Virus record (IMG/VR): IMGVR_UViG_3300028388_004748
Location: 1 to 42,739 of that record
Source of the DNA: a virus
Length of the DNA: 42,739 nucleotides
Direction: 5' to 3' (one strand)
Shown: in pieces, positions 2,517 through 15,175 of the stretch
Layout of the letters: the number at the start of each line of letters is the position of its first letter
Position numbering within the stretch: the stretch's first letter is position 1
Position numbers and translations under genes: made by a program
Notes under the pieces: model-generated
The model's input: the letters and a program-made list of their open reading frames with translations, nothing else
Told to the model about the DNA's origin: nothing
Database searches by the model: none

Positions 2517-2780
2517 ATGCCTAAAATCAAAACCAAGAAAATCCATGTGAATCAATGGAACGTTAAAAGGAACGCTAAGGGCGAAAGTCCTCGGCTGCCT
2601 GTCTTCACTGTGAAGACATATAACAGCAACACCTATGGCCATGAAGTAGCTATAGAGGGACCGAGTCGGCTTGTGTATAGGCCTGATAAGCCTATGCCAT
2701 GCGGAGCAAAGGCTTGGATAGAGACCCAAGCGCAAGTGCGTATCATAAACCAAGAGAACCAAGAGGAGATTATAGAATGA
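2517..2780 (+). CDS. Hypothetical protein, 87 aa
   Basis: I do not recognise a family. The protein is basic at its N-terminus (PKIKTKKIH) and then looks beta-rich, with a short acidic tail. The start is fixed by a GGGAGG ribosome binding site five bases upstream, which lies inside a perfect 8-bp hairpin (2477-2514). The stop overlaps the start of the zinc-ribbon gene at 2777 as ATGA, so the two genes are coupled and the hairpin probably controls both. Confidence 0.65.
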   Translation: MPKIKTKKIHVNQWNVKRNAKGESPRLPVFTVKTYNSNTYGHEVAIEGPSRLVYRPDKPMPCGAKAWIETQAQVRIINQENQEEIIE

Positions 2781-3040
2781 AAGACCCAAGAAAGACCCAA
2801 AGCATGAGGGAGAGATTCGAGAAAAGCCTAGTTCCCATCCCAATCTGCCCAATATGTGGCGATGGCCCCGCACTAGAGGGAGACTCTGCGCCTTGCGCAA
2901 GCTGCGGACAAGCCACAGTTCTGGGGCATTTCTACGAGGCCACACGAGATCGGCTCGTCTATTACCAAGATTATGAAAGGGCTTTTGAGCATTGGCTCGA
3001 TGATTGGTACTGGATAATTCAGGACGCAAATTCAGAGTAA
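2777..3040 (+). CDS. Small zinc-ribbon protein, 87 aa
   Basis: The start is the ATG at 2777, which overlaps the previous stop (ATGA). A longer in-frame version from 2699 would overlap the upstream gene heavily and is not used. Two knuckles, CPIC and CASC, about 18 residues apart near residues 24-46, form a likely zinc ribbon. After it comes an aromatic and acidic helix (YYQDYERAFEHWLDDWYW). Small zinc ribbons in phages often bind nucleic acid or a host protein, but no specific role can be read here. Confidence 0.65.
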   Translation: MKDPRKTQSMRERFEKSLVPIPICPICGDGPALEGDSAPCASCGQATVLGHFYEATRDRLVYYQDYERAFEHWLDDWYWIIQDANSE

Positions 3041-3045
3041 AAAAA

Positions 3046-3068
3046 AGCCAAGGGCAAAACCCCTGGCT
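3046..3068 (-). terminator. Hairpin with U tract on the - strand
   Basis: AGCCAAGGG (3046-3054) pairs with CCCTGGCT (3061-3068), with one bulge. Read on the - strand, the hairpin is followed by seven U residues (from the A run at 3038-3045). On the + strand no U run follows. It fits a terminator for leftward transcripts, which is odd because no - strand gene lies nearby. Confidence 0.35.
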
Positions 3069-3173
3069 CCAAAAAAGAAAAAAGCCCCTTATCAAAAGAG
3101 ACAAGATGCAGTCAGAGAAATAGCGCAACTGTGCTCCTTTGCGCAAGTAATTATTGCAATGACTTCTCGGGTC

Positions 3174-3193
3174 GTGTTACCACTAGGTAACAC
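3174..3193. promoter_or_regulatory. Perfect palindrome, possible operator
   Basis: GTGTTACC (3174-3181) and GGTAACAC (3186-3193) form a perfect palindrome around ACTA. The AAGGAG ribosome binding site of the next gene starts one base later. The core word GTTACC recurs in three other intergenic sites. It is a candidate binding site for one of the HTH proteins encoded nearby, or an mRNA hairpin. Confidence 0.45.
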
Positions 3194-3208
3194 AAGGAGA
3201 GCAAAGCA

Positions 3209-3550
3209 ATGGATAATCACAAGAAAGCTGCTTTTGAGACCGATTTGGGCCAAAAAGCGCAAGTCTCTAGGAGCGAGGCGCAAGGGGAACGTGAGACGGT
3301 GTTAAACCTTATGTTGCGTGAGATTGGGGCCGAGGCTAATCAATTGCCAGAAACTAGCGAATATATGGGGTCATGTGCTGTGCACGTTTATAAACCCAAG
3401 GGAAACGTGCAATATCTGCATTTTCAATGTCAAGTGGACCCTATGCAAGAAGTCCCTGAGCATATTGCGGATAAGGCCTTGGTCGATCTCAAGGGGACAT
3501 TAATGGAATTCTACGGACGCAAGCGACAGACCAAGAGGAGCGGGTTTTAA
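3209..3550 (+). CDS. Hypothetical protein, 113 aa
   Basis: There is no recognised family. The ATG is supported by AAGGAG about ten bases upstream, next to the palindrome at 3174-3193. The N-terminal third is charged and probably helical. The middle (GSCAVHVYKPKGNVQYLHFQ) looks like beta strands, and the C-terminus is basic (YGRKRQTKRSGF), as in nucleic-acid-binding tails. It is the first gene of a four-gene run (3209-4578) with overlapping stops and starts, so the four are probably co-translated. Confidence 0.65.
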   Translation: MDNHKKAAFETDLGQKAQVSRSEAQGERETVLNLMLREIGAEANQLPETSEYMGSCAVHVYKPKGNVQYLHFQCQVDPMQEVPEHIADKALVDLKGTLMEFYGRKRQTKRSGF

Positions 3551-3828
3551 TGCCTATCAGTGAAGACAAGCGCAAAAGTAAGGTGATCAGAGTCTCCCAC
3601 GAGAATCTAAGCAAATTAGAAAAGTGGAAAGGTCCGCGAAGTGATTCGTGGAATAAAGCCCTAGAGGTGGCTTTAAATTCCATTAATACAAGTCCAGTCT
3701 ACACGCTCCCTAGTTTGATTTTTCCGACCCAAAAGGAGGCAAGGCAAGCGGCGCTTGAGATAGGAGCGCGCGAAGGTGTGGATTTTGAGGAGATAGAACA
3801 GCCGGTTAAGATAAGAAAGACAAAATGA
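3550..3828 (+). CDS. Possible ribbon-helix-helix protein, 92 aa
   Basis: The ATG overlaps the previous stop by one base (TAATG). Residues about 10-45 (KSKVIRVSHENLSKLEKWKG, then a second helix) have the strand-helix-helix pattern of MetJ/Arc-type or antitoxin-type DNA-binding proteins: a basic strand, a Ser/Asn N-cap, and two amphipathic helices. The rest includes a strand and an acidic helix. A regulator role is therefore plausible, with the nearby GTTACC palindromes as possible sites. The family call is by pattern only. Confidence 0.5.
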   Translation: MPISEDKRKSKVIRVSHENLSKLEKWKGPRSDSWNKALEVALNSINTSPVYTLPSLIFPTQKEARQAALEIGAREGVDFEEIEQPVKIRKTK

Positions 3829-4202
3829 GCCTAGAAAGACTGAAAGACAAATATCCTTTTATTAACAGCAAGCCTTTTAAAGACTATAACGCAAGTGAAT
3901 TCGCCGAGCATCTCAGGGAAATTATAAACCATACCCAAAGAGTAAAACGCGCGAAAAAGGAGGAGGCTAAAAAGAGGTCCGAGCGTTATAAAGTGGAAAA
4001 AGAGCCCATATATGTCACCTTTCGTATTACCAAGACTGGCAAGGGGTCTATTATCATAAGAAAACGCAAGCCTCCTTACATATTAGTCTCAGAACTGGAG
4101 GGGATTAAAAAGGAATTTCCCACTAGGCACAAGGAGATTGCCGAGGCCATAGAAAAGAGAGAAATTCCAATCAAAGAGGACCCCAAGAAAAAGGAAAAAT
4201 GA
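3825..4202 (+). CDS. Hypothetical basic protein, 125 aa
   Basis: There is no recognised family. The start overlaps the previous stop (ATGA). The sequence is strongly basic, with a long Lys/Arg-rich helix at about residues 38-58 (RVKRAKKEEAKKRSERYKVE), a short beta segment (PIYVTFRI, GSIIIRKRKP), and a Lys/Glu-rich end. The charge suggests nucleic-acid binding. It lies between a possible ribbon-helix-helix gene and a LuxR-type HTH gene in a tight cluster. Confidence 0.6.
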   Translation: MSLERLKDKYPFINSKPFKDYNASEFAEHLREIINHTQRVKRAKKEEAKKRSERYKVEKEPIYVTFRITKTGKGSIIIRKRKPPYILVSELEGIKKEFPTRHKEIAEAIEKREIPIKEDPKKKEK

Positions 4203-4203
4203 G

Positions 4204-4578
4204 ATGCAGAAGACTAAAGACTTTCCCGAGGCCTTAGAACAAGGCGAGGAATTCACGCCTCCCATAGAAGTCGAGAGAGATATAAGGGATGAGGCAGACG
4301 AAGAGATGCCGCCCGAGCATAATCTCTATATGCGCGAATTAATGGAGGTGGGTCTCACTTATAAACAAAAGGTGACTTGCTGTCTTATGTTGGAAGGGTT
4401 CACACCTAGGATTATATCGGCCAAGGAAGACGTTTCTATTTCAGCAATCAAGCAGCGCATGACTGCAATCTTAAGTAAACACGAGGTAACGAATAGCAGA
4501 GAGCTGATGGCGCTTTATGTGAAATATTACAGAGATCGCTATTTTGACTTACTGCAAAAATCTATAAAAGGGAATTGA
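4204..4578 (+). CDS. LuxR/GerE-type HTH regulator, 124 aa
   Basis: Residues about 51-106 match the LuxR C-terminal helix-turn-helix: LTYKQK at the start, LEGFTPRIIS for the scaffold helix, VSISAIKQRM for the turn and recognition helix, then HEVTNSRELMAL, the typical end of the domain. The first 45 residues are acidic and contain no receiver or autoinducer domain, so it is a stand-alone DNA-binding protein. It ends the cluster that starts at 3209. A perfect 9-bp inverted repeat follows immediately, ahead of the ubiquitin-like cassette. It may control that cassette or itself; this is inference. Confidence 0.7.
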   Translation: MQKTKDFPEALEQGEEFTPPIEVERDIRDEADEEMPPEHNLYMRELMEVGLTYKQKVTCCLMLEGFTPRIISAKEDVSISAIKQRMTAILSKHEVTNSRELMALYVKYYRDRYFDLLQKSIKGN

Positions 4579-4582
4579 CCTA

Positions 4583-4605
4583 GGTGGTAACGAAAGGTTA
4601 CCACC
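4583..4605. promoter_or_regulatory. 9-bp perfect inverted repeat before Ubl gene
   Basis: GGTGGTAAC (4583-4591) and GTTACCACC (4597-4605) are perfect complements with a five-base loop (GAAAG). It sits between the LuxR-type gene and the ubiquitin-like gene (ATG 4647). No U run follows. It may be an operator, or an mRNA hairpin that stabilises the Ubl transcript. Confidence 0.45.
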
Positions 4606-4646
4606 AAGACTCGATAGCTTGTTTAACCAAAAAAGAAGGAGGAAAG

Positions 4647-4853
4647 ATGCAAGCAAAAAATGTAATTTCACAGGTGTTAGGTGGCGACAAGGCTGTATTG
4701 GATGATGTCAGCACGGTGGCCGATGCACGAGATCGTATGGGACTTAGCGCCGATTATAGCGCGACAGTCAACGGCGAGCCAGCAAGCGCAGAGACTGGGC
4801 TTCGAGACAATGATTTCGTCGCGTTTTCTCGTAAAGTAAAAGGTGGCCAGTAG
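4647..4853 (+). CDS. Ubiquitin-like beta-grasp protein, 68 aa
   Basis: The start at 4647 follows AAGGAGGAAAG; an upstream in-frame start at 4584 lies in the inverted repeat and has no such signal. The protein has the size and pattern of ThiS/MoaD/Prok_Ub beta-grasp modifiers: a central helix (TVADARDRMGL, residues 23-33), a strand with VNGEPAS (41-47), then LRDNDFVAFSRKV (52-64), and the diagnostic C-terminal Gly66-Gly67, followed by one extra residue, Gln68. In such systems the terminal glycine is adenylated by an E1-like enzyme and joined to a target amine or sulfur. The genes that follow encode an E2-like, a JAB peptidase and an E1-like protein, which strongly supports the call. Removal of Gln68 would be needed first, a natural job for the JAB protein. 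Confidence 0.82.
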   Translation: MQAKNVISQVLGGDKAVLDDVSTVADARDRMGLSADYSATVNGEPASAETGLRDNDFVAFSRKVKGGQ

Positions 4854-4866
4854 GCCTCCGAGACCG

Positions 4867-4893
4867 AGAGGGGCGCGAAGCCCCTCTTTTTTT
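4867..4893 (+). terminator. Strong intrinsic terminator after Ubl gene
   Basis: AGAGGGGC (4867-4874) and GCCCCTCT (4880-4887) form a perfect GC-rich stem with loop GCGAA, followed by seven T residues. It lies 14 bases after the Ubl stop and 55 bases before the E2-like gene. It should make the Ubl transcript mostly monocistronic, with partial read-through into the enzyme genes. Confidence 0.85.
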
Positions 4894-4947
4894 ATCCAAA
4901 AAAAAAAAGAAAAGAGAAAAAAGAAAAAAGAAGGAAAAGGAGAAAAG

Positions 4948-7194
4948 ATGCAAGCAGAGACGGAAACCATAGATCAAAATGCGCAAGCAGGTTATGAATC
5001 TTATTGCGAGGACGCGAATAATTTTCTGGATTCGTTTAATGTCGTACAGCTCATAGAAGGTGCCATCACAGAATTTACGACACATTCAGAGGAACCCGAA
5101 GGCAAGGTTAAGGTACTACGGACCGACAACGAGGAAATAAGGCAATTGACTCTTAACCATGGCGCACTTCTTAGTTATCCCATAGATATGTTGATCTCAC
5201 TGATTTTAAGTGAAAACGAACTGCAAGATGAGGCGATGTTAGGTGGCGCGGTTGTAGCTTACCACGAACCTTCACTGGGCCTACATGGGGATGTTTTTCC
5301 CGAGGGGATTTCATTTTATCTTCCAGCCCCAGAGGAATTTTATTTCTGGAAAGCCCCTAAAGATAATGAACCTCAAAGGTTTGAAAGTGCCTTGAGGGAG
5401 AGTTTTTTAGCGGACCGTTTTATGTCGCTTTGTCGCCATGATAGAGGGTTTTACTTAACTCCAATGCAATTTCAAGGTTTGATGAATGAGAGGAGTTTTC
5501 GTTTGCGAGATCGGGGTGTTGCCGTAGCGCAAAGAATCCTAATTGGAGAAGATAGCTTGCCTATTGAATGGAAAACCGCATTGCCTAGGGCTGATTTCCT
5601 AGAAGCAAGAAGGCTTGCTGATATAACTGAGCTAGGGCGCGGCGCTTTAATTTCAGCCCTGGAGACTTTTGAAGGGGATACGAGAAAAGACTATCTAGCC
5701 TTTGTAGACAAAAAACGATTACTTCTAGTACCTAACAATAACCGCTCCATCGGCCATATATATAATTTTGACACTGAATCTTGGGATAGCGGTAAGATTA
5801 GAGAATCCCTCTTTAATCAATGTAAAACCTATCCGAGTCATTTTGTGATTTTCCTTACGAGTGAGAATATTCATGACCTTCATTATGTGGAGTCTTTTTC
5901 ATTATATTATGAAGATGACTTAATCGAAGAGGAACGAGACCAATGGGATGAATGGATACGGAGTGGGTTTTGTATACGTTCGCATCATTGGTTCAAACAG
6001 TCATACCAAGAAATTCAATTAGCTCCTAAGCCACAGGAAGGGACTCTTGACTGGGCCTATCGAGAGCTAAGAAGGAAGGCTGCCCACGAGGACATAGAGC
6101 TGCTAAATTATGTGCAGAATATCACCGAGGCAGCGATGATCGTTACATCCAATTGGCATTGGGGAGAGATTTTCTTTAATGACCAAGGGTTTTTAAAAGT
6201 CAGAGAAAAGAGAGATATAAATGCGCTGATTTTCCAAAAGAGACTTCCCTCCGAATTTCTTGATTATAAAAAAGAGGAGGAAAAAGAGGAGGAAAAACAA
6301 GTCACCAAAGAACAAATTGAATCCTTTTTGGAGCAATCTAGTCGGCGCTTAGTTGCAGAATCCGAGGCAAGCAGAGAAGCCTATGATGCTCTAAACGTGA
6401 GAATTCAAGCACTCCGCAATGAGCTAGACTCCTGCACTAGCCAAGCAAGTGCTATTGCACAGCGCATGGGATACACGAGATCGGGCGATATGACTATGGC
6501 TGATGGGATTTTTGAGGATATAAAAGCACTCGCCACAACTGGTGTTTATGAATTCCTTGGGATTTCCGAGCGCGGTTATCTTCTCTTTAAAAACATATCT
6601 CCATTCTTTCTCAAGACTAGCGATGGAGAGGAGCGGTTTAATGTCCGTATTGGGCGGTTTTTATTCGAGGTCAATCCCTTTAATTACAAGGTAAGGTGCA
6701 AAAGTCTTGATCTCTGTGAGACTCCCACCACCGATTATAAGCATCCCTACCTCATGACCAATGATTGGCTTTGCTTTGGTGCCGAGGAGTCTCGACGATC
6801 TAAACTATTAGCAAGGCGCGATCTATATGATCTCATGCTTTTAGTGAGAGATCTTCTCACCTCTTTTGACCCAGGGAATCCCTATGTCTCTGATCAGGTT
6901 TTTATAGCAGCGCATAAGGCATGGGAGCGCGCAAAAGATATTGCAAGGCTTGAAGGCTCAGATTTTTCAGAGGCTCGCGCCGATTTTAATAGAGATATGG
7001 GGAATCGAGAACTTAAAGAGGGATTCTGTGATTACTACAATATCTACATCGGGGAATCCGGTGATATTCACCTCGGTAATGATGCTTATGAGATGACTGG
7101 GAGAGGCTGTCATTGGTACGAACATCCCTGGGATGACCCTTTTCATGCGGTAGATGATTATGAGGAGGAATGCGAAGATGACTGTTATATCTAA
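4948..7194 (+). CDS. Large protein with E2/UBC-like C-terminal domain, 748 aa
   Basis: The start at 4948 follows AAGGAG; a longer frame from 4843 would run through the terminator and is rejected. Residues 1-440 are not recognised. Residues about 448-505 are a Glu/Lys-rich coiled coil. Residues about 520-670 look like an E2-type (UBC/RWD-like) fold: strands, then YKHPYL (His599-Pro600), six residues to WLCFG with Cys609, then a long helix (DLYDLMLLVRDLLTS) ending near a Pro-Gly-Asn-Pro turn. This mirrors the E2 order HPN, active-site Cys, C-terminal helices. The tail is very acidic. Between the Ubl and the JAB/E1 genes it most likely carries the Ubl thioester and transfers it; the N-terminal region may choose the target. 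The E2 call is by motif and context, without an alignment. Confidence 0.65.
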   Translation: MQAETETIDQNAQAGYESYCEDANNFLDSFNVVQLIEGAITEFTTHSEEPEGKVKVLRTDNEEIRQLTLNHGALLSYPIDMLISLILSENELQDEAMLGGAVVAYHEPSLGLHGDVFPEGISFYLPAPEEFYFWKAPKDNEPQRFESALRESFLADRFMSLCRHDRGFYLTPMQFQGLMNERSFRLRDRGVAVAQRILIGEDSLPIEWKTALPRADFLEARRLADITELGRGALISALETFEGDTRKDYLAFVDKKRLLLVPNNNRSIGHIYNFDTESWDSGKIRESLFNQCKTYPSHFVIFLTSENIHDLHYVESFSLYYEDDLIEEERDQWDEWIRSGFCIRSHHWFKQSYQEIQLAPKPQEGTLDWAYRELRRKAAHEDIELLNYVQNITEAAMIVTSNWHWGEIFFNDQGFLKVREKRDINALIFQKRLPSEFLDYKKEEEKEEEKQVTKEQIESFLEQSSRRLVAESEASREAYDALNVRIQALRNELDSCTSQASAIAQRMGYTRSGDMTMADGIFEDIKALATTGVYEFLGISERGYLLFKNISPFFLKTSDGEERFNVRIGRFLFEVNPFNYKVRCKSLDLCETPTTDYKHPYLMTNDWLCFGAEESRRSKLLARRDLYDLMLLVRDLLTSFDPGNPYVSDQVFIAAHKAWERAKDIARLEGSDFSEARADFNRDMGNRELKEGFCDYYNIYIGESGDIHLGNDAYEMTGRGCHWYEHPWDDPFHAVDDYEEECEDDCYI

Positions 7195-7249
7195 GAAAAA
7201 AGAAAAAAGAACCAAAAAGGAAAAAAGGAAAACAAAGGAGGCGATTAAA

Positions 7250-8353
7250 ATGTTTTCGGATTTTAAAATTATACTGCCACTTAAAGTAAGGGAGCAGATA
7301 CAGTATTGGGTCGATAAGGCCGATAACGAGTGTTCAGGACTTGGGGATGCGTGGCTTGATCTTGACAAAAAAGAAGTGCGTATCACACGAGCCTTCATGC
7401 TAGATCAAGAATGCTCTGCTGTCGATACGGAGCTAGATGAAAAAGCAATTGCCAAGGCTATGTACGAGGCCCATCAAGATGAATCCAATGGTATCAAGAG
7501 AAATATCAAATTCTGGTGGCATTCACACGTTAATATGGAGGTGTTTTGGTCTGGTACTGATACTAAGGCCATGGAGGAACTGAGTGAACAATCATGGTTT
7601 GTGAATATCGTTTTTAATAAGAAACGAGAAATGCTAGGAGCTATATCCTATCCCTATAAAAAAGAGGCTGTGGGATATATTGAGGAAGGCATAACCTATG
7701 ACAATGACCTTAAGATCGAAGTGGAAGGTTCTATCTTTTCCGAGACTGAGATCGCAGCCATGGATAAGGAATTTAAAGAGAAGTACAAAGTGCGCACAGT
7801 GAAGACAACTATGTATAATGGCGGCATAATCACCGGCTACACATGGAAAAACGGAGTCTCGACTCCTATCTATGGGCCTAGTATGCCGAGCATGGAGGAA
7901 CCCGAAGTGGGATACAATCCGCCAGAAGTGGACCCCAAAGAGATCGAGGCTTGCTCCCCTTTCTCAAACAGCCTTAAAGCAGGTGATACGCTAAAAGGTG
8001 TGGCGCTTCTTTACACAAGCCCTACACTGTTAATCGGTCGTACACTAGAGGAATATAGCGAGGTGGTTTTTAAAAAGCATTATCATAATTGCTGGTACAC
8101 CTACGCTTGGGGCGCGGATGATATTGACCCCAAGGCTTATTATGCCATGCCCGATGATGTCCTTGAGATTCTCTTTAATGAACTTGATGATGTAGCCTAC
8201 AATAAAGAGACCGTAGAGGTTTTGTTTGATGCCTACGAGGCCCGAACGGGTCAAAGCAATATCCCTAAGAGAAAGATCGAGCCCGAGATTAATGGCAACA
8301 CATGGGATGATGCAGAGGGGTGGGATTACCGCGCATGGGGAGGTTTACTATGA
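7250..8353 (+). CDS. JAMM/JAB isopeptidase-like protein, 367 aa
   Basis: The start at 7250 follows AAAGGAGG eight bases upstream; an earlier in-frame start would translate an A-rich leader. The full JAMM zinc metallopeptidase motif is present: Glu27 (NECSGLG), His91-Ser92-His93, Ser101 and Asp104, with the exact H-x-H-x7-S-x2-D spacing. The fold occupies residues 1 to about 145. A further 220 residues are not recognised and may bind the modifier or a partner. JAB proteins beside Ubl, E1 and E2 genes cleave modifiers from targets or trim their C-terminus. Here it could remove Gln68 of the Ubl and reverse conjugation. The stop overlaps the E1-like start as ATGA. Confidence 0.88.
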   Translation: MFSDFKIILPLKVREQIQYWVDKADNECSGLGDAWLDLDKKEVRITRAFMLDQECSAVDTELDEKAIAKAMYEAHQDESNGIKRNIKFWWHSHVNMEVFWSGTDTKAMEELSEQSWFVNIVFNKKREMLGAISYPYKKEAVGYIEEGITYDNDLKIEVEGSIFSETEIAAMDKEFKEKYKVRTVKTTMYNGGIITGYTWKNGVSTPIYGPSMPSMEEPEVGYNPPEVDPKEIEACSPFSNSLKAGDTLKGVALLYTSPTLLIGRTLEEYSEVVFKKHYHNCWYTYAWGADDIDPKAYYAMPDDVLEILFNELDDVAYNKETVEVLFDAYEARTGQSNIPKRKIEPEINGNTWDDAEGWDYRAWGGLL

Positions 8354-9018
8354 GAAAAGAATTCTTAACTAGGCACGCAGACCTTCTCCCCTGGGAGAAT
8401 CTTGGCCTCTCCATAGCAATCATTGGGGCGGGAGCTGTCGGTTCCCAGGTGGCTTTATGCCTTGCCAAGCTAGGCTTTGATGATATTCATGTCTATGATT
8501 TTGACACGGTTGATGAAGAGAACATGAATTGCCAATGGTACGGACCTGAAGATATTGGAAAACTAAAGGCTGATTGCCTTTTCCACCAAGTCTACAGAAT
8601 GACTGGCACGGAAATTAACACTCATGCCCGGCGCGTAGAAGCTGGCTCAGGGCTAGAAGGAATGCCCGATATTGTTATCTGTGCTGTGGACTCCATGAAG
8701 GCTCGCGCGGAATTATGGGATGCTTTTGGGCGCGCGGCTAAGTGGTGGATTGACCCTAGAATGAGCGCGGAAGAGGCCTTGATCTATACGGTTAATCCCC
8801 GAGACCGAGCAGAATGCCAGCGTTATGTAAAGACTCTTTATAGCGACGAGGAGTCGGTACAAGAGTCCTGCACAGCCAAGGCTACTATGTATTGCGCCAT
8901 GATGCTGGCCGGTCATGTGGCAAAATTTGTCAAAGACATCGCTGTGGAGGATTCACCTTCCCACACAGTACAATGGAACATTAAGCAAGACGCATATCTA
9001 AACTATAGGAGGACTTAA
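8350..9018 (+). CDS. ThiF/E1-like Ubl-activating enzyme, 222 aa
   Basis: The ATG overlaps the JAB stop, so the two are coupled. The ThiF/MoeB/E1 Rossmann core is clear: IIGAGAVGS (residues 24-32) for ATP binding, VYDFDTVDEEN (48-58) with the acidic and Asn residues of the adenylation site, Lys71/Lys73, and ICAVDS (110-115) with the magnesium-binding Asp114. Cys174 (ESCTAK) is the best candidate for a catalytic cysteine. At 222 residues it is close to a minimal single-domain E1-like enzyme, without the added domains of eukaryotic E1. It should adenylate the Ubl C-terminal glycine. The arginine found after Asn-Leu-Gln in MoeB appears absent here (Cys61-Gln62), which is a point to check. Confidence 0.85.
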   Translation: MRKEFLTRHADLLPWENLGLSIAIIGAGAVGSQVALCLAKLGFDDIHVYDFDTVDEENMNCQWYGPEDIGKLKADCLFHQVYRMTGTEINTHARRVEAGSGLEGMPDIVICAVDSMKARAELWDAFGRAAKWWIDPRMSAEEALIYTVNPRDRAECQRYVKTLYSDEESVQESCTAKATMYCAMMLAGHVAKFVKDIAVEDSPSHTVQWNIKQDAYLNYRRT

Positions 9019-9019
9019 T

Positions 9020-9376
9020 ATGCACCAACCAACACAAGATGACTTAATTATGATTAAAGAAAATCTTGATATGTCTAACGCTGAGCTGGCACGAGCTGTA
9101 GGAGCATCTACGACTCAGGTAGTGGCTCGTTGGGTAGAGGGAGAAACATCACCTAGCCCAAGATTTTGGCCTAGTATCAATAAATTATTGTTACGACTAA
9201 ACACAAAAGCCCAAAAAATTGAGGAGCAAGAGGCTTCTGTATTCAAGGAGGAGCAAGCCTCCACTAATACCGAGATTAATTGGAGTACCATTGGGCAAGC
9301 GGCATATCTTGTCGCCTTAATGAGTCAAAACGAGCGTTATGCTCTCGGGAAATTGACCGGATTTATTACTGAATAA
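9020..9376 (+). CDS. XRE-like HTH protein, 118 aa
   Basis: Residues about 18-47 (MSNAELARAVGAS, QVVARWVEGETSPSP) fit the XRE/Cro helix-turn-helix, with the usual W-x-x-G-x-x-x-P ending. The C-terminal part is helical and unrecognised. AGGAGG lies seven bases before the ATG, inside the end of the E1-like gene, and only one base separates the two genes. It therefore belongs to the Ubl cassette transcript and may regulate it. A large hairpin after the gene marks the probable end of the operon. Confidence 0.72.
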   Translation: MHQPTQDDLIMIKENLDMSNAELARAVGASTTQVVARWVEGETSPSPRFWPSINKLLLRLNTKAQKIEEQEASVFKEEQASTNTEINWSTIGQAAYLVALMSQNERYALGKLTGFITE

Positions 9377-9502: not shown

Positions 9503-10114
9503 ATGAATAATTTCAGACTATGGCCCACCTTCGAGAAAGTAATCACCGAGCTAGGCCTTTCCGCATACGATTGTCACAAAGAAATCCCAAGGAATGATGA
9601 ATACAGAGCCCTAGGTCATGGGGCGGGTGCAATCTGCATCGAGGAGGCCGTGACCCTTGGTGGGCTTCTAATGATTCACAAACCAGACATAGTGATAGAG
9701 CTAGGGACTGCATGGGGAGCAAGTTCTGTGGCCATGGCTTCGGTCCTAAAAGACCTTGGCAAGGGTCATCTTTATACCGTGGACCTAGCTAAGGATATGC
9801 CATTCACTAGCGCATTAGCAGAGAGGCATTCTCTACCTCTGACATATATCACAAAGACGCGAGGCCGCGACTTTTTAACGAACTTAGCTATTAAACCCAA
9901 TCTCAGATATTTTGTTTTCTCTGACACGGATATTCCCCAAAGGCCTGGGGAGGTTAAAGAAGTTATTAGACGTTTCCCAAAAGGGAGTCTTGTGGCGGTA
10001 CATGATACCTCTGACCTTCATCCCATCGGCCCAATGAACTTGCCTAAACACGTTACCGAGCGCGAAATTATAGAGCTGCCAAGCCCTCGGGGCCTTTCAA
10101 TTCTTAAAGTTTAA
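9503..10114 (+). CDS. Class I SAM methyltransferase (CmcI-like), 203 aa
   Basis: The ribosome binding site AAGGAG lies eight bases before the ATG. The Rossmann methyltransferase motif I is clear (VIELGTAWGASSVAMA, near residue 70). A second acidic strand follows (LYTVDL) and then a later strand with VHDTSDLHP. This pattern resembles the CmcI and small-molecule or sugar O-methyltransferase families (Methyltransf_24 type) rather than DNA methyltransferases, because no NPPY/DPPY motif is present. The next gene is a glycosyltransferase-like protein, so methylation of a surface sugar is a reasonable guess. The substrate is unknown. Confidence 0.72.
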   Translation: MNNFRLWPTFEKVITELGLSAYDCHKEIPRNDEYRALGHGAGAICIEEAVTLGGLLMIHKPDIVIELGTAWGASSVAMASVLKDLGKGHLYTVDLAKDMPFTSALAERHSLPLTYITKTRGRDFLTNLAIKPNLRYFVFSDTDIPQRPGEVKEVIRRFPKGSLVAVHDTSDLHPIGPMNLPKHVTEREIIELPSPRGLSILKV

Positions 10115-10146
10115 ATTCTAATCACCGATATGCCAGGGGGGCTATT

Positions 10147-11214
10147 ATGGAACCACTTAAACCAGTGGACCCTAGGGGAGAGCTAAAAAAGGCTCGCCAC
10201 AAGGGGTCTGTTGTCGATGAATCGGGGCTTTTTTTGAGAAAGCCTACGAAGCTGCATAGGCATACGTTTAATTATTTCTTACAGGGAGGAGGTCTTGGGG
10301 ACTATATATGTCAGATGCCGGTCTTTGAATATATGGCTGAAAACATGCCTCATGTCGATGGGAGGCTTTATGCGAGGCCTCCTTTTCTTGAGGTGGCTGA
10401 ATATATCATGAAGCCATGGCCCAAGTGGAAGGTGTATAATATCGATGACGCGCCCAAGATTATGCAGAAAGGCGAATTCATTTCATCTCCCACTAAATAT
10501 CATAAATATATAAATCCCTGCGGAGCGCATCTCATGGATTTAGGCTTTATGTACTACCTCAACATGGATAGGCCTCCACAAGGCTATGGGAGAATGCCTG
10601 ATCTCACCGGCTATTGCTCAGGCAAGGACTGGGGACTTCCCAAAGACTATGCGGTTATGACCCCAGGTTATACTTGTCTTACGCGAGCCACGCCAGCATG
10701 GGCCTTTAATGACCTATGCCAGTATCTTTTATCCCTAGGCATTACGCCGGTTTTTCTTGGGCGCGAGCACTTTGCAGATGCTGATGGAGGCTATGTGGCA
10801 GAGGACTATCATGCCAAGATCGGGGAAGGTGTGGACTTATCCCAGGGCATTAATCTCATGGAAAAGACAAGTCTTTTGGAGGCTGTGGAAATCATGAGGG
10901 GCGCGAAGATTGTACTAGGTGTGGACAATGGGCTGCTTCACTTTGCGGCCTGTACGGAGGTTCCTATCATCTTTGGGATGACGATAACAATTCCAAGGCA
11001 TCGGTGGCCGCGAAGAGCCAGGGGAGATACCGAGGTGATTACAGTAAGGCCCGAGAAGTTAAGCTGCATTGGATGCCAGTCTAAAGTCCGGTCTGTGGTG
11101 GGCTCAGACTTTAAATATTGTCTTTATGGGGATTACCTATGCACCGAGGCACTTTTTGAGAATGAATGCGCCGACTGGAAGAATGCAATTGATATTCTTT
11201 TAGAGGATTTCTAA
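10147..11214 (+). CDS. GT9/heptosyltransferase-like protein, 355 aa
   Basis: The fold looks like glycosyltransferase family 9 (ADP-heptose:LPS heptosyltransferase). Near the N-terminus is a glycine loop, GGGLGDYICQMPVFEYM (about residues 47-63), like the GxGD-x-x-x-x-P motif of WaaC/WaaF. The C-terminal half carries KIVLGVDNGLLHFAACTEVP, the donor-binding D-x-G-x-x-H-x-A motif, and then IIFGMT. Several cysteines follow (SCIGCQ, YCLYGDYLC). GT9 enzymes act at the inner face of the Gram-negative membrane. Here it may alter host LPS to block superinfection, together with the methyltransferase before it. That role is inferred. Confidence 0.75.
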   Translation: MEPLKPVDPRGELKKARHKGSVVDESGLFLRKPTKLHRHTFNYFLQGGGLGDYICQMPVFEYMAENMPHVDGRLYARPPFLEVAEYIMKPWPKWKVYNIDDAPKIMQKGEFISSPTKYHKYINPCGAHLMDLGFMYYLNMDRPPQGYGRMPDLTGYCSGKDWGLPKDYAVMTPGYTCLTRATPAWAFNDLCQYLLSLGITPVFLGREHFADADGGYVAEDYHAKIGEGVDLSQGINLMEKTSLLEAVEIMRGAKIVLGVDNGLLHFAACTEVPIIFGMTITIPRHRWPRRARGDTEVITVRPEKLSCIGCQSKVRSVVGSDFKYCLYGDYLCTEALFENECADWKNAIDILLEDF

Positions 11215-11233
11215 GGGAGCGCGTTCGCATCTC

Positions 11234-11330
11234 CGCGCACGCAAGTCAATAGCGGGTGGGAAGGAGTTAGGACCGAAGGATTAAAACACCCCCCAGGTAT
11301 TTTCCCTTTCTCGCGCACGCAAGTCAGTAG
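11234..11330. repeat. Direct repeats between convergent genes
   Basis: Two 19-base copies (11234-11252 and 11312-11330) differ at one position; the core is CGCGCACGCAAGTCA. They lie 78 bases apart in the gap between the + glycosyltransferase and the - gene that ends at 11339. A diverged third copy (CGCGAGCGCAAGTCC) occurs near 11429 inside that gene. The role is unknown. A small GC-rich stem (11219-11238) overlaps the first copy. Confidence 0.55.
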
Positions 11331-11338
11331 TAATGGTT

Positions 11339-11581
11339 TTAGGCCTTAAGTTCTATAATCTCCTCTACCCAGTGGTTAGGTAGAGTCATCACCATGGAAC
11401 ACTTCTCGTTGAAGGGGTCAATTTGCATCGCGAGCGCAAGTCCGTGATCGGAGTCTTCAATAAGAAAACCCACGGTGGTTATTTGCTTGCAAGCCCTTTT
11501 TGGCCCCACAATATCTTCCCACTCATCAGAGCTTTCGGCATCAATCCATGTCACCTTTACTATGGGAAATTGCTTATCCAT
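11339..11581 (-). CDS. Small hypothetical phage protein, 80 aa
   Basis: The start is supported by GGAGG ahead of the ATG and overlaps the end of the metallophosphoesterase gene by eight bases. The sequence has a type that I recognise from many phages: an N-terminal strand (IVKVTWIDAESSDEW), a central Thr-Val-Gly segment (TTVGFLIEDSDHGLALAM), and a C-terminal Pro-x-x-W helix (NHWVEEIIEL). No function is established. It is the last gene of the leftward lysis cluster and converges on the + accessory arm. Confidence 0.7.
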   Translation of the reverse strand: MDKQFPIVKVTWIDAESSDEWEDIVGPKRACKQITTVGFLIEDSDHGLALAMQIDPFNEKCSMVMTLPNHWVEEIIELKA

Positions 11582-12338
11582 AGATATATCCTCCGTAAAG
11601 TGCGCGCCCCTCCAAGATGCTCACCTGCTCGATAAAGGCTTCTGTCTGGTTTTCAATTGTCACCATGCAGAAACATTGCTGCCAGCTCTCATGCCCTTTA
11701 ACATAAGAAAAGACCCTTTGGTGTTCTTCACTCCGCTTGGTGCTACCAAGCCATCCATTAAAGAAGCAGTAATATTGCTTCCCACTTTTCCCGGTCCTCA
11801 CAGCAACCTGCTGTCTATGCGAACACCCATAGATCGAGGATTCGTCTATGTCTTTCTCTAGGCTGGTCATGGCCCCATTTTTGGCATAACTTGGAGGGGA
11901 GTGTTGGATATATACATTGCTCCCTTCGATCCGATACCGCGTATTGTAGGGATAAAATTTGATACCCAGATCAACGAGACCCAAGAGCTTGTCGAGTTTG
12001 AGGACCTCGAAGAGTTCTTTACAGTTTCTGAGGATGAAGCGTTCCAGCCGATCCTCGTGGTTTCCGAAAAGGAAGATTATTTCTGTCTTGGGAAATCGTT
12101 CTCGGAGGTGCTGGAGCCAGAGCCTGGTATCTTCTATTTCATCCCAAAGGATTGTCCCTACCCCAGGGTGCTTGGGTCCGTGCATGTTGACGTTATACAT
12201 GTCCATGAGGTCGCCATTAATAATAATCCTATCGACCTGTTGATCGTCTGCAATGTCGAGAACTAAAGCCACGGCTTGCTTATCATGGAAGGGGCGATGA
12301 AGGTCATTTATGACCAAGGTTTTAGTGATCACACCCAA
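11574..12338 (-). CDS. Calcineurin-like metallophosphoesterase, 254 aa
   Basis: The metallophosphoesterase motifs are in order: D-x-H (NDLHRPFHD), IINGDLMD, FGNHED, a His in YIQHSPP, and a final GCSH, which stands where the family's usual GHTH is found. These bind two metal ions and cleave phosphoesters. Such genes are frequent in phages and may act on nucleic acid ends or small nucleotides; the substrate is unknown. No ATG is available at the N-terminus. The frame opens with TTG at 12338, or GTG six bases later, and neither has a strong ribosome binding site, so the exact start is uncertain. Confidence 0.82.
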   Translation of the reverse strand: MGVITKTLVINDLHRPFHDKQAVALVLDIADDQQVDRIIINGDLMDMYNVNMHGPKHPGVGTILWDEIEDTRLWLQHLRERFPKTEIIFLFGNHEDRLERFILRNCKELFEVLKLDKLLGLVDLGIKFYPYNTRYRIEGSNVYIQHSPPSYAKNGAMTSLEKDIDESSIYGCSHRQQVAVRTGKSGKQYYCFFNGWLGSTKRSEEHQRVFSYVKGHESWQQCFCMVTIENQTEAFIEQVSILEGRALYGGYIYG

Positions 12339-12372
12339 TTATCGCCAGTGGGCGCTTTTATTAAAATATTAT

Positions 12373-12394
12373 GACCAAAAACTAGGCATTGGTC
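12373..12394 (-). terminator. Weak terminator-like hairpin
   Basis: On the - strand GACCAA and TTGGTC form a perfect 6-bp stem with a 10-base loop, followed by an A/U-rich stretch (ATAATATTTT). It directly follows the stop of the gene at 12395 and precedes the metallophosphoesterase gene, so it may reduce read-through. Confidence 0.4.
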
Positions 12395-12589
12395 TTAATT
12401 GAAAAATCCTAGTAGCTGTGCCAATTTACCTGCACCGACACCAGATGCGCTGCCAAAAAGGGTTGATAAGCCCAGAACACGCAGCTTGAAGGTGCTAAGT
12501 TCCATCTCCACATTGTCAATCTTGGCAAGCATATAAGCCCGCCATTCCTTTTCATTATCTACTATTCTTTGGATTTCTTCGGGGTTCAT
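12395..12589 (-). CDS. Holin candidate, XhlA-like layout, 64 aa
   Basis: The start at 12589 is fixed by AGGAGG; a longer frame would overlap the preceding gene. Residues 1-36 are a charged helix (EIQRIVDNEKEWRAYMLAKI), and residues about 37-62 are a single weakly hydrophobic segment rich in Leu, Gly and Ala. This is the layout of XhlA-type small membrane proteins that work with holins. Together with the nearby endolysin and lipoprotein, a lysis role is likely. The holin call rests on layout and context only. Confidence 0.5.
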   Translation of the reverse strand: MNPEEIQRIVDNEKEWRAYMLAKIDNVEMELSTFKLRVLGLSTLFGSASGVGAGKLAQLLGFFN

Positions 12590-12611
12590 TACGCCTCCTC
12601 TCAGATTATTT

Positions 12612-13412
12612 TTATTTTTTAAGCCCAAGGCCGCCAAGGATTGTGGAGCCTCCGCCGCCCCCAGAGGGTATTTGGTCATTTTCCTCTACATCAACAAAAC
12701 TGGTCCGACTAGAACCACTCAGGTCAAGACCACTGCTTGATGGATCAATCTCAGAATCCCAAATCACCATTTCATTCAAATCATAGTCCCCGTCATTTCC
12801 TAGCATCGGCGCTGTGCAAGGCAAAATCTCACCATAACGAGGGTTATTAACAGTGAAATCACTAGCTGCACTTGCCGTGGCGGTCTCAATCTCTGTTCCA
12901 TCAACCCAAAAACCAATACCCCCTGTGCCAGTCGTTCCATCCCAAGTCATGCAAATATCAGACGCTGTTCCGCTTGTTGCTGACCATGTGGCCGTAGTGG
13001 TGACATTTAAGAGATTGTTGCTTAGGGCACCACCCAGAAACCTCGCGCCAAAAGTCCCATCCGTATTGTGAACTAGATAAGCCCATGGCAAATTGGTGAA
13101 AGAAGTAAAGGACCACAAACCGCCAAGACTTGCTGCACCAGGGCTCCCAGTGTATTTTGGAATAACTCTGATAAGACAAGAAAACCCACCGGTCATCAGT
13201 GGAATGTTGCCAAGCCCCAAGAATCTGTAAGTCCTATAAGGTTGTGTTTGTTTGTCAACATTCAGAACTGTTGAACCGATCACCCCAGTATCTGCCGATG
13301 CAGTAAGCGCAGGCGCTGTGTCCGCGCTTAGAGCCATAGGACTGTGCGTGGTTACTACCGACGTATAGCGGGGCGCTAACTGGTCTGATCTATATGCAAA
13401 AGTAATCGCCAT
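12612..13412 (-). CDS. LamG/lectin-like virion protein, 266 aa
   Basis: Residues about 40-235 are beta-rich with the concanavalin/LamG pattern: TASDICMTWDGTTGTGGIGF, then WVDGTEIETATAS, and near the end DYDLNEMVIWDSEID. The C-terminus is a Gly-rich linker and a basic tail (GGGGGSTILGGLGLKK). Such folds bind carbohydrate on phage spikes or capsids, so it is probably a virion-associated adhesin. The start overlaps the endolysin stop (TAATG), and a TM-type gene follows. Confidence 0.6.
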   Translation of the reverse strand: MAITFAYRSDQLAPRYTSVVTTHSPMALSADTAPALTASADTGVIGSTVLNVDKQTQPYRTYRFLGLGNIPLMTGGFSCLIRVIPKYTGSPGAASLGGLWSFTSFTNLPWAYLVHNTDGTFGARFLGGALSNNLLNVTTTATWSATSGTASDICMTWDGTTGTGGIGFWVDGTEIETATASAASDFTVNNPRYGEILPCTAPMLGNDGDYDLNEMVIWDSEIDPSSSGLDLSGSSRTSFVDVEENDQIPSGGGGGSTILGGLGLKK

Positions 13413-13801
13413 TATTTAAGACTCCCATCCAACCTAAAACCGTTTTCCTTCAAGATGTCCTCAGAGAGATCCCACAAGAGATCCTCTTGCACTTCATTTA
13501 GTTTAGCATGTTTTGAACTTCGCCGAACGTCCAGAAGTTTCACCTTCGAGTAGGCGCGAACATTCACAGCGTCCCTTTGGTTTCCGCCCAAGGTGTAGAT
13601 ATGATCTTTACTCTCTCCGAGCCAGAAACCTACATGGCCCTGCCACCCAGACTTCGACCCTCTCCAGAACACCACAATGTCCCCAGGCAGGGGATCATTC
13701 TTCGTACTGCGCCCCCAATTTAACCAGCTCCGAGCGAGCCGCGAATTGGTACTCCCCATGACCGTGCCCCGAACCCTCGTGTTCTCCACCACCCAACACA
13801 T
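13412..13801 (-). CDS. Endolysin catalytic part (NlpC/P60-CHAP-like), 129 aa
   Basis: The sequence fits the TIGR02594-type peptidoglycan hydrolase. Cys2 stands where the catalytic Cys of PWCAAF lies. ARSWLNWG follows at exactly the usual distance of 24 residues to the Trp. Next come LPGDIVVFWRG, then GHVGFWLG with the catalytic His, and the typical LGGNQRDAVNVRAY. The frame opens at ATG 13801 with a modest AGGG upstream. The usual N-terminal segment is missing from this frame but is present in the overlapping frame 13968-13720. A frameshift, programmed or accidental, or a two-part enzyme is therefore likely. Confidence 0.75.
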   Translation of the reverse strand: MCWVVENTRVRGTVMGSTNSRLARSWLNWGRSTKNDPLPGDIVVFWRGSKSGWQGHVGFWLGESKDHIYTLGGNQRDAVNVRAYSKVKLLDVRRSSKHAKLNEVQEDLLWDLSEDILKENGFRLDGSLK

Positions 13802-13968
13802 GAATTCCCTGCTCCCGCGACCTCCTTCGTGCCCACTTCCTCTCGCGCCACCTCAAGCAGTCGGTAGTTCCTAAAGTCTTTGCTAACCTTTTTTGGAGCG
13901 GGTACTAGCATTTTACTAAAGAGTAGATCGAAAAGTTTTCTAAAGAAATTCAAAATCGCTTCTTTCAT
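13720..13968 (-). CDS. Endolysin N-terminal segment in another frame, 82 aa
   Basis: Residues about 1-25 are hydrophobic and basic (LNFFRKLFDLLFSKMLV), possibly a membrane anchor or signal-arrest segment. Residues 36-56 (RLLEVAREEVGTKEVAGAGN) match the start of NlpC/P60-type phage endolysins (AR-x-E-x-G-x-x-E-x-x-G). The last 25 residues look like out-of-frame reading of the catalytic ORF. A -1 shift near 13805-13815 would join the two into one endolysin of about 180 residues. The start overlaps the lipoprotein stop (TAATGA). Confidence 0.55.
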   Translation of the reverse strand: MKEAILNFFRKLFDLLFSKMLVPAPKKVSKDFRNYRLLEVAREEVGTKEVAGAGNSCVGWWRTRGFGARSWGVPIRGSLGAG

Positions 13969-14279
13969 TATCTCGCCTTACTGTAGAATTCGTTTTTCAA
14001 ATAGGTTATTGCTTTATTAAACCAAGCAAACATCTCTATGACTTGGTGGCCTGGCGCGCTCACATGATTATGCAAATACTTAATGTCTTCTTTATCAGTG
14101 GTGTACATCGAAATTTTAAATTTCGTATCCTTGTGGTTTTTGCATTCAAATTGACGAACCTTCATATTCACAAGGCAGGTATCCATCTTCGGCGCTGGCC
14201 CAATGGTACACCCACTAAACGTGATCAATGCGATTAACAAGGTCATGGATTTTATCAAGTACAGCCTCTCTTTCAGCAT
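13968..14279 (-). CDS. Small lipoprotein, o-spanin candidate, 103 aa
   Basis: From the ATG at 14279 the product has a basic start, a hydrophobic segment (MTLLIALITF) and a lipobox ending in Cys24 (TFSGC), so it is probably a lipoprotein exported and anchored by lipid. The mature part has two further cysteines, a mixed strand and helix pattern, and a basic end. The start lies inside the end of the gene 14436-14215 in another frame, which resembles the nested Rz/Rz1 arrangement of spanins. An alternative start is the ATG at 14246. It is Pro-poor compared with lambda Rz1, so the spanin role is tentative. Confidence 0.5.
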   Translation of the reverse strand: MLKERLYLIKSMTLLIALITFSGCTIGPAPKMDTCLVNMKVRQFECKNHKDTKFKISMYTTDKEDIKYLHNHVSAPGHQVIEMFAWFNKAITYLKNEFYSKAR

Positions 14280-14436
14280 TCGATTCGGCACTCGCCAGTT
14301 CTTCTTTGATTTCCTGCGCTTCTTTATTAATTTTGTCGTAACTAAGTCTCTTTCGCAGGAACAGGATGACCTCATCAGCCACCCTGTTTGCGAGTCTTTC
14401 AACGAACATTCCTACGATGCGCTGGAACCAGCTCAT
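14215..14436 (-). CDS. Small helical protein, 73 aa
   Basis: AAGG lies about eight bases upstream of the ATG, and the gene follows the 75-aa gene with two bases between. The product starts with an amphipathic segment (MSWFQRIVGMFVERLANRV), followed by a charged coiled-coil-like helix (KINKEAQEIKEELASAESNA). A membrane-surface or i-spanin-like role is possible, since its 3' end overlaps the lipoprotein gene in a different frame. There is no full transmembrane segment, so the spanin idea is weak. Confidence 0.5.
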   Translation of the reverse strand: MSWFQRIVGMFVERLANRVADEVILFLRKRLSYDKINKEAQEIKEELASAESNAEREAVLDKIHDLVNRIDHV

Positions 14437-14438
14437 GG

Positions 14439-14666
14439 CTAACCTTCTTCGCCATCTATCCGATCTATTTGCTTTAAGACTTCTTCCCTGAGCATAGGAA
14501 TAATAGCAATAACAAGGTCGTCATACTTGTTTTCAGACATCTTTGCAGAGTTTTCAAACCAGTTAAGAACCTCTTCAAGAACAAGAGCAGCGGCATCTTC
14601 GGCAAGATCCAATCCGCGTTCTTCGAGCTTTTTTAAAAGGTCTTTAGTATCGTATGCTTTTTCCAT
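14439..14666 (-). CDS. Small hypothetical acidic protein, 75 aa
   Basis: Two adjacent ATGs occur; the second (14666) has the better five-base spacing from AGGAGG. The product is acidic and helical (KKLEERGLDLAEDAAALVLEE, then LNWFENSAKMSENKYDD), without a membrane segment. I recall similar small proteins beside lysis genes of other phages, but no role is established. Confidence 0.65.
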   Translation of the reverse strand: MEKAYDTKDLLKKLEERGLDLAEDAAALVLEEVLNWFENSAKMSENKYDDLVIAIIPMLREEVLKQIDRIDGEEG

Positions 14667-14689
14667 CATATCCTCCTTGGATGGGTTAA

Positions 14690-15034
14690 TTACGTTTGAG
14701 CCACTTCTTCCAGATAGGCCACATATATTGCATCACCTTCGGTTGCCGCCACATAATAGTCGGACAAATTCACGGGTATCATATCATTACCCACCGTGGG
14801 CGGGGTTACGGTAAAGGGTGAATCACTTGTGATCTTAACACCATTCTTATTGGTGGTGGTCACTCCAGAATTTCCGACCCAGTTTCCTGTGGTGGCGGAG
14901 GCGGAGTCCTCGTTCACTCCAATCACAAGGGCATACACATATTTATCCGTAGAACTTAATTGCTCGGCGCTGTCCGTGCCTGTGGTGATGGCCTCGTAGG
15001 TGTATTTTAAATAGGTTGATTGATTAATGCTCAT
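14690..15034 (-). CDS. Small beta-rich structural-type protein, 114 aa
   Basis: This is the first gene of the leftward cluster, with GGAGGG ahead of the ATG and a candidate promoter at 15088-15116. The sequence is Thr/Ser/Val-rich and beta-like (YVYALVIGV, KITSDSPFTVTPPTVG) and starts SINQSTYLKYTYEA. It has no cysteine, signal or membrane segment. The composition suggests a virion decoration or fibre-accessory protein, but no family is recognised. Confidence 0.55.
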   Translation of the reverse strand: MSINQSTYLKYTYEAITTGTDSAEQLSSTDKYVYALVIGVNEDSASATTGNWVGNSGVTTTNKNGVKITSDSPFTVTPPTVGNDMIPVNLSDYYVAATEGDAIYVAYLEEVAQT

Positions 15035-15087
15035 ATTCCCTCCGTTGGAATGCCCACATATAGTCCCTCAAGGTACTAACGCGTACA

Positions 15088-15116
15088 ATTATAAAAAAAT
15101 TTTGACAGTATGGGAA
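15088..15116 (-). promoter_or_regulatory. Candidate leftward sigma-70 promoter
   Basis: On the - strand a perfect -10 (TATAAT, 15093-15088) lies 17 bases from a partial -35 (TTCCCA, 15116-15111). It would drive the leftward lysis cluster starting at 15034, and it overlaps the rightward promoter in the same 141-base gap. Confidence 0.5.
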
Positions 15117-15130
15117 CGAAGGCTTTATCG
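15102..15130 (+). promoter_or_regulatory. Candidate rightward sigma-70 promoter
   Basis: A perfect -35 (TTGACA, 15102-15107) is followed after 16 bases by TTTATC (15124-15129), a weak -10. It would drive the replication operon starting at 15176. Confidence 0.45.
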
Positions 15131-15141
15131 TCAGAAGCCTA

Positions 15142-15158
15142 GTTACCACCGTGTAACC
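15142..15158. promoter_or_regulatory. GTTACCACC-GTGTAACC site
   Basis: GTTACCACC (15142-15150) is followed directly by GTGTAACC (15151-15158); GTTAC and GTAAC form an inverted pair. The site lies just downstream of the rightward -10 box and before the replication operon, a good operator position. The same words occur at 705-736. Confidence 0.45.
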
Positions 15159-15175
15159 ACTACAAAGGACGCAAA

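Follow-up and report, generated by a model that had tools for sequence, protein, structure and literature searches.

Cassettes in which a ubiquitin-like protein (Ubl) is encoded together with E2, JAB and E1 proteins have been predicted in bacteria since 2006 (PMC1779556), among them operon type 6d of Iyer 2006 (PMC1779556), which has a PRTRC-like order. A function of bacterial cassettes in defense has been shown since 2023-2024 (e.g. PMC10449767; Bil), and in Bil the Ubl conjugation acts on phage tail fibers (PMC12948488, PMC11364771). Here, we describe a cassette of this type in the IMG/VR virus record IMGVR_UViG_3300028388_004748, the whole of which (42,739 bases) was analyzed and is called the window below. 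Four consecutive + strand genes (4647-9018) encode a Ubl, a protein with an E2-like domain, a JAMM peptidase of the JAB family and a ThiF/E1-like adenylating enzyme. With a probability of about 0.75, we propose that they form a phage-owned, reversible Ubl conjugation pathway, likely operating early in infection, with predicted activity and inferred targets. The cassette type itself is already known from bacteria; the interest of this one is that it is widespread, with a close lineage restricted to phages, and can be tested in cultured phages. As bacterial Ubl conjugation is known as a host defense against phages, a widespread phage-owned pathway would turn that relationship round. No report of a phage-encoded Ubl-E2-JAB-E1 cassette was found in a literature search that left preprints and many subscription journals outside its reach.

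A sequence-only reading of this DNA had placed the same four genes in a phage genome, and all of them were recovered at the positions it gave, with a small correction to the start of JAB. The tailed-phage identity was confirmed with PHROGs profiles, which detected a terminase, a portal or head-tail adaptor, a major head protein, a DNA polymerase, a primase, a Sak4 annealing protein and an exonuclease; the terminase resembles those of scattered phages, mostly proteobacterial. Most of the four genes have a clear ribosome-binding site. The Ubl gene (4647-4853, + strand, 68 aa) starts at ATG 4647 behind a strong one, and the open reading frame of the E2 protein (4948-7194, + strand, 748 aa), also with a ribosome-binding site, starts at ATG 4948. 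The JAB gene (7250-8353, + strand, 367 aa including a C-terminal extension of no assigned function) starts at ATG 7250, and the E1 gene (8350-9018, + strand, 222 aa) starts at ATG 8350, overlapping the JAB stop. Long A-rich purine leaders were also observed right before the E2 start (4900-4947) and the JAB start (7195-7249).

A neighborhood search, as the sequence-only reading had suggested, showed that the system extends to many unrelated phages: dozens of virus contigs, probably crAss-like phages, and Flavobacterium and Xanthomonas phages. When the full-length E2 protein was used in a pattern search, neither virus contigs nor phage records gave a match because this protein diverges too fast, and the family was instead reached via JAB, relatives of which were found in 31 other virus contigs (L002-L032), with one more obtained via alignment. 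All of these 31 loci harbor an E2-domain gene with the Cys, E1 is present in all except those cut by the contig end, and Ubl lies upstream in nearly all complete loci. The usual gene order is Ubl-E2-JAB-E1, with the variants Ubl-E2-E1-JAB (L004, L008) and E1-Ubl-E2-JAB (L022, L023), and a terminase was detected in 22 of the 31 cassette records. The retention of this gene set with invariant active sites across about 30 divergent virus contigs is more than chance. By contrast with the 32 virus contigs, a search for the family JAB motif in 84,980 species of bacteria and archaea, one genome each, returned two short metagenome-bin contigs; the scan used one exact motif and speaks for this close lineage only. 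Judged by its sequences, the close lineage thus seems almost absent from bacterial genomes, and the cassette looks like a protein-tagging system of the phages' own.

The Ubl of the window ends in KVKGGQ, with the Gly-Gly at residues 66-67 followed by one extra residue. As predicted from the sequence beforehand, its fold was confirmed as beta-grasp in a confident AlphaFold2 model, with a predicted local distance difference test (pLDDT) score of 90.6, a strand-strand-helix-strand-strand-strand order, and MTH1743, MoaD and ubiquitin as best Foldseek matches. The single sequence matched Pfam ThiS at E=0.0075, ThiS was also detected in 10 of 23 relatives, and a profile built with these 23 relatives reached archaeal SAMP2 in the PDB at 6e-7. 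Tails across the family read G[GA], mostly plus one further residue, so that trimming is probably needed. In the large contigs L025-L032, the Ubl was missed by the profile and recognized by eye, exhibiting an N-terminal coiled coil and the tail KV[AS]GG. Variations on the Ubl gene were also found: L015 (3906-4274 and 6242-6655) has a tandem double Ubl of 137 aa, both repeats ending in KVKGG, and a third Ubl-like gene just before E1, and L020 (12042-12317) encodes an additional Ubl-like protein whose tail is rich in Cys.

A hairpin followed by a T-tract (4866-4895, + strand) lies after the Ubl stop and ahead of the E2 start, and constitutes a strong signal resembling an intrinsic terminator. 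Such hairpins were detected behind 10 of 28 Ubl genes, compared with 0/31 for E2, 1/27 for JAB, 1/27 for E1 and 20/573 (3.5%) for other genes of the same loci. This enrichment after Ubl is significant (Fisher p ~1e-7, or 5e-5 if L025-L032, which are related, enter as a single case), and the hairpin sequence varies between phages. The terminator behind the Ubl gene is a new observation of this analysis. We interpret the element at 4866-4895 as a likely attenuator, since partial termination would yield an excess of Ubl over the enzymes, as expected for a tag that is consumed.

The E2 protein consists of a long, poorly conserved N-terminal region, a coiled coil and a UBC-like domain (6535-6945, + strand, residues ~530-665). 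The sequence-only reading had set an E2-like domain at the C-terminus; the domain was borne out by profile and fold, and its position was not, as it lies short of the extreme C-terminus of the 748 residues. This is the fastest-evolving protein of the cassette, with 30% identity to the closest relative (L002) over part of its length vs 57-66% for the other three. In a single-sequence Pfam search the window E2 gave nothing convincing. A profile of 31 E2-domain sequences searched against 177,635 PDB sequences returned almost exclusively ubiquitin-conjugating enzymes up to E=1; these matches are related to each other and individually weak, the best at 0.047. In the alignment, HPH..G.lClG of the phage family falls on HPN..GnICLDIL with the Cys aligned, and beyond it both share a helix and an NP-P segment. 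Pfam detected UQ_con in four members and Prok-E2_B and Prok-E2_D in one each, all below curated cut-offs. The fold expected around Cys609 was also found by structure prediction, in which the domain model (pLDDT 82.7) exhibits a helix, a beta-meander, the active-site loop and helices as in the UBC fold; its eight best PDB folds in Foldseek were all Ubc9, RWD domain or TSG101-UEV, as weak matches (E 0.15-0.42). At ~20% identity over the 31 sequences, the only invariant residues are the catalytic Cys and the Gly two residues later, with HPH or HPY before the Cys. In the window, the active site reads H599-P600 ... C609-F-G, and the codon of the predicted catalytic Cys609, assigned as the invariant Cys and by alignment with PDB E2s, occupies 6772-6774 (+ strand). 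A second E2-domain gene directly after E1 was observed in L014 (9606-10358).

The two remaining enzymes were more readily recognized. The JAMM ligands E, HxH and S-x2-D, noted early on for their correct spacing, are invariant in 27 JAB relatives, as is WWHSHVNM; Prok-JAB was detected in 24 of these 27, and a JAB profile matched N11/Rpn11 (1.4e-8) as well as JAMM1 in the PDB. The assignment of the fourth gene as ThiF/E1-like was likewise upheld, with Pfam ThiF at 1e-23 and PDB profile matches to Uba5, Uba1 and ThiF. Invariant among its relatives are the GxGxxGS (GxGxxG) loop, D50, N58, K73, D114 and the predicted catalytic C174 in the motif CTxK.

The components and their conserved catalytic residues come from sequence and fold prediction, and from these we infer the enzymatic steps, the order of events and the targets. 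The terminator right after the Ubl gene would provide an excess of Ubl mRNA, and the JAMM peptidase would trim the residue or residues beyond Gly-Gly. The E1 may then adenylate the C-terminal Gly of the Ubl and form a thioester on C174, from which the tag would move to Cys609 of the E2. The E2 would attach it to target proteins, and its own N-terminal region, which is large and variable, would give the guidance otherwise expected from an E3; we propose this poorly conserved region as the target selector. The peptidase would later take the tags off. The pathway most likely acts early, on host or phage proteins of replication or takeover, a role favored because the recurrent neighbors are replication, partition and recombination genes and the replication module of crAss-like phages. 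In the other loci, these neighbors comprise a D5-type primase-helicase, an SNF2 helicase, ParB, an AAA ATPase and RecA. Downstream of the cassette in four large phage contigs (L025, L026, L027 and L032, ~10600-15200), ParB-like, AAA+ (AAA_lid_3) and RecA-like genes were found, and this AAA+ protein could serve to unfold the tagged proteins.

Several points weigh against a conjugation pathway of this kind. The E2 is recognizable only through a profile and a weak fold match, and where the E2 motif HPN has its classical catalytic Asn, the phage family mostly has His or Tyr. The sequence-only reading had named loss of the E1 ATP site as a result that would speak against it; such a loss was seen in part, as the Arg of the NxxRQ motif is replaced in all 37 phage E1s (it is kept in 9/9 PRTRC E1s), with no variation in the remainder of the site. 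The equivalent MoeB residue makes contact with ATP, and loss of the Arg could weaken adenylation or point to different chemistry. The conjugating activity is a prediction, the targets are putative, and the proposed early-infection role is read from neighboring genes only.

Among phages with annotated genomes, E1 relatives were found in 80 records, most of them from crAss-like Bacteroides phages and from 29 Flavobacterium phages. The crAss001 genes gp79-gp78-gp77-gp76 follow the cassette gene order between a DNA primase and a uracil-DNA glycosylase. Here gp76 is the E1 and gp77 the JAB, gp78 has a conserved HSH...PCxG motif, and gp79 begins with a Ubl-like segment ending in KKIKSGA. The set was found in 13 of 14 related virus contigs, with a motif not recovered in every one. 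The cassette is stably embedded in the replication module across the crAss-like group, and in both crAss001 and Fpv1 it lies in this module near a primase, a uracil-DNA glycosylase and nucleases. Sequence comparison firmly establishes the homology of the crAss E1 and JAB; the assignment of E2 and Ubl is probable, made by motif (HSH...PCxG; KxxKSG[AG]) and position. When compared with the window-family profiles, the crAss E2-like profile gave E=7e-4 and a probability of 27%, which is only suggestive (unrelated profiles gave 0.1% in a control hhalign), and the Ubl-like profile was not significant; neither had a meaningful match in the PDB. Flavobacterium phage Fpv1 (L079) has the same gene order and the Ubl tail KQVKSGG; at 2701-4993, its JAB gene is seemingly split into gp56 and gp54 by the opposite-strand endonuclease gene gp55, a pattern resembling the insertion of an intron or homing element. 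Xanthomonas phage PhiXhv-12 (L080 1736-6488) encodes a Ubl-like protein, an E2 (E=1.5e-7) and an E1, with no JAB recognized in the 10 kilobases read. The Ubl-like protein of this phage has no residue beyond GG and, with no JAB nearby, this fits a role of JAB in maturation. The presence of this gene order in cultured phages makes the proposed pathway directly testable in crAss001 (Bacteroides intestinalis), DAC15 (B. thetaiotaomicron) and Fpv1 (Flavobacterium psychrophilum). It also suggests functions for genes of abundant gut phages whose current annotations read thiamine biosynthesis, metalloprotease or hypothetical. Bacterial viruses with such a pathway may tag proteins of the host or their own, much as ubiquitin is exploited by some animal viruses. 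The broader proposition, to which we give even odds, is that Ubl conjugation of the phages' own takes place during infection by many tailed phages, the crAss-like ones of the human gut among them, with a dedicated Ubl/E1/E2/JAMM lineage, transcription tuned to excess Ubl and an E2 N-terminal region that picks the targets.

Among the known systems closest to the phage cassette is PRTRC, the plasmid cassette named for its ParB-related and ThiF-related genes, with the order ParB-E-C(Ubl)-F-B(E2)-A(JAB)-ThiF (TIGR03735-03738); we take operon type 6d to be the same system. A PRTRC likeness had been noted from the sequence alone, and the phage genes might accordingly be a divergent branch of PRTRC serving replicon maintenance or partition. 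Ubl, E2-like, JAB and E1-like genes stand in the same relative order, the E1 profiles align at 99.6% probability and are clearly homologous, ParB directly follows E1 in L002 and lies near the cassette in four large contigs, and the best NCBIfam match of the window E1 is PRTRC_ThiF (1.3e-20), below the cut-off at 73.7 bits vs 144.75. The window Ubl, E2 and JAB, in contrast, matched no PRTRC family, the E2 profiles barely align (9.6%) and the Ubl profiles do not (0.1%). The active sites also differ: the PRTRC protein B is without the HPH motif, in line with a PRTRC-type E2 reported to have no classical His before the Cys and a conserved downstream His (PMC1779556); the PRTRC Ubl tail has a single conserved Gly after Lys instead of Gly-Gly, and its E1 keeps NxxR and SCS. 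In the E1 tree, the PRTRC proteins form their own clade (100/99) with all phage E1s on the other side of a split of moderate support (88/72), the placing of long branches being unsure. PRTRC sits on plasmids with ParB and the proteins E and F; the phage cassette is carried by phages, ParB_N occurs in only 5 of 31 cassette records, the window not among them, and no counterpart of protein E or F was recognized. Membership in PRTRC was therefore not accepted, given the rarity of ParB and the differences in the E2 site, in the Ubl tail and in both the motif and the clade of the E1, and we consider a PRTRC branch unlikely. What stands of the likeness is gene order and E1 kinship: by its sequences, the phage cassette is a distant relative sharing E1 ancestry with PRTRC. 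A PRTRC-like cassette with a PAPS-reductase family gene nearby was also seen on a Vibrio campbellii plasmid (L074 7905-9396).

Other systems suggest other uses of the same proteins. Bil (BilABCD) encodes separate Ubl, E1, E2 and JAMM proteins, and the window likewise holds the complete set as separate genes, a comparison made by gene content. Bil is a host-encoded defense, whereas this cassette is carried by phages, which might use it to tag host defense proteins or incoming rival phages. This special case of conjugation, differing in its targets, is the main alternative to an early role in replication or takeover. It has a precedent in the tagging of tail fibers by Bil (PMC12948488, PMC11364771), and it agrees with the cassette lying in the early arm at a distance from structural genes, and with the E2 protein evolving fastest, as expected of a conflict-driven specificity module. 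Against it, the stability of the cassette in the crAss-like replication module is unlike most counter-defense genes, which are sporadic; we thus regard it as possible but rather doubtful. CBASS Cap2/Cap3 and 6A-type systems share a homologous E1 domain (PADLOC E1-E2 models ~1e-10) and a JAB partner, but there E1 and E2 form one polypeptide without a separate Ubl gene, whereas the phage genes are all separate; a test for CBASS type II found no E1-E2 fusion, and no nucleotidyltransferase was recognized beside the window cassette. PDB profile searches placed the Ubl closest to archaeal SAMP2 and the JAB near archaeal JAMM1; the archaeal SAMP system differs in that it is not known to include an E2. 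The resemblance of the Ubl to ThiS and SAMP2 would also suit a ThiS/MoaD/SAMP2-like thiocarboxylate donor (e.g. for tRNA or DNA thiolation), perhaps helped by the PAPS-reductase family gene located in the phage's left arm (1055-1825). This idea was set aside after a co-occurrence test, in which just two of the 31 cassette records held a PAPS reductase; no rhodanese was recognized. The conserved E2 with its invariant Cys points to conjugation, for which an E2 is needed, rather than sulfur transfer, for which it is not, and we know of no role of such an E2 in the latter, leaving a sulfur carrier very improbable. Marginally less probable still is virion maturation, in which the Ubl would tag or join structural proteins. 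Lambda-like tail genes do pair a Ubl with JAB (PMC1779556), namely tail protein I and protein K, the latter containing the JAB, but these tail assembly genes lack E1 and E2, no structural gene was recognized beside the cassette in the loci examined, and the main text of the crAss001 structural atlas does not mention gp75-gp79. The sequence-only suggestion that virion proteins are tagged thus found no support, the recurrent neighbors being replication, partition and recombination genes instead of structural ones.

Directly 3' of E1, the window encodes a helix-turn-helix (XRE-like) protein (9020-9376, + strand, 118 aa; HTH_3 6.4e-5), corresponding to the neighboring XRE regulator that had been read from the sequence. 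This protein has no relative in the other cassette loci, and its link to the cassette is uncertain; in L002, the same slot is taken by the ParB gene (ParB_N 1.9e-12). Further on (9503-11214), a methyltransferase (CmcI/Methyltransf_24) and a glycosyltransferase family 9 gene follow the cassette, perhaps serving surface-glycan modification.

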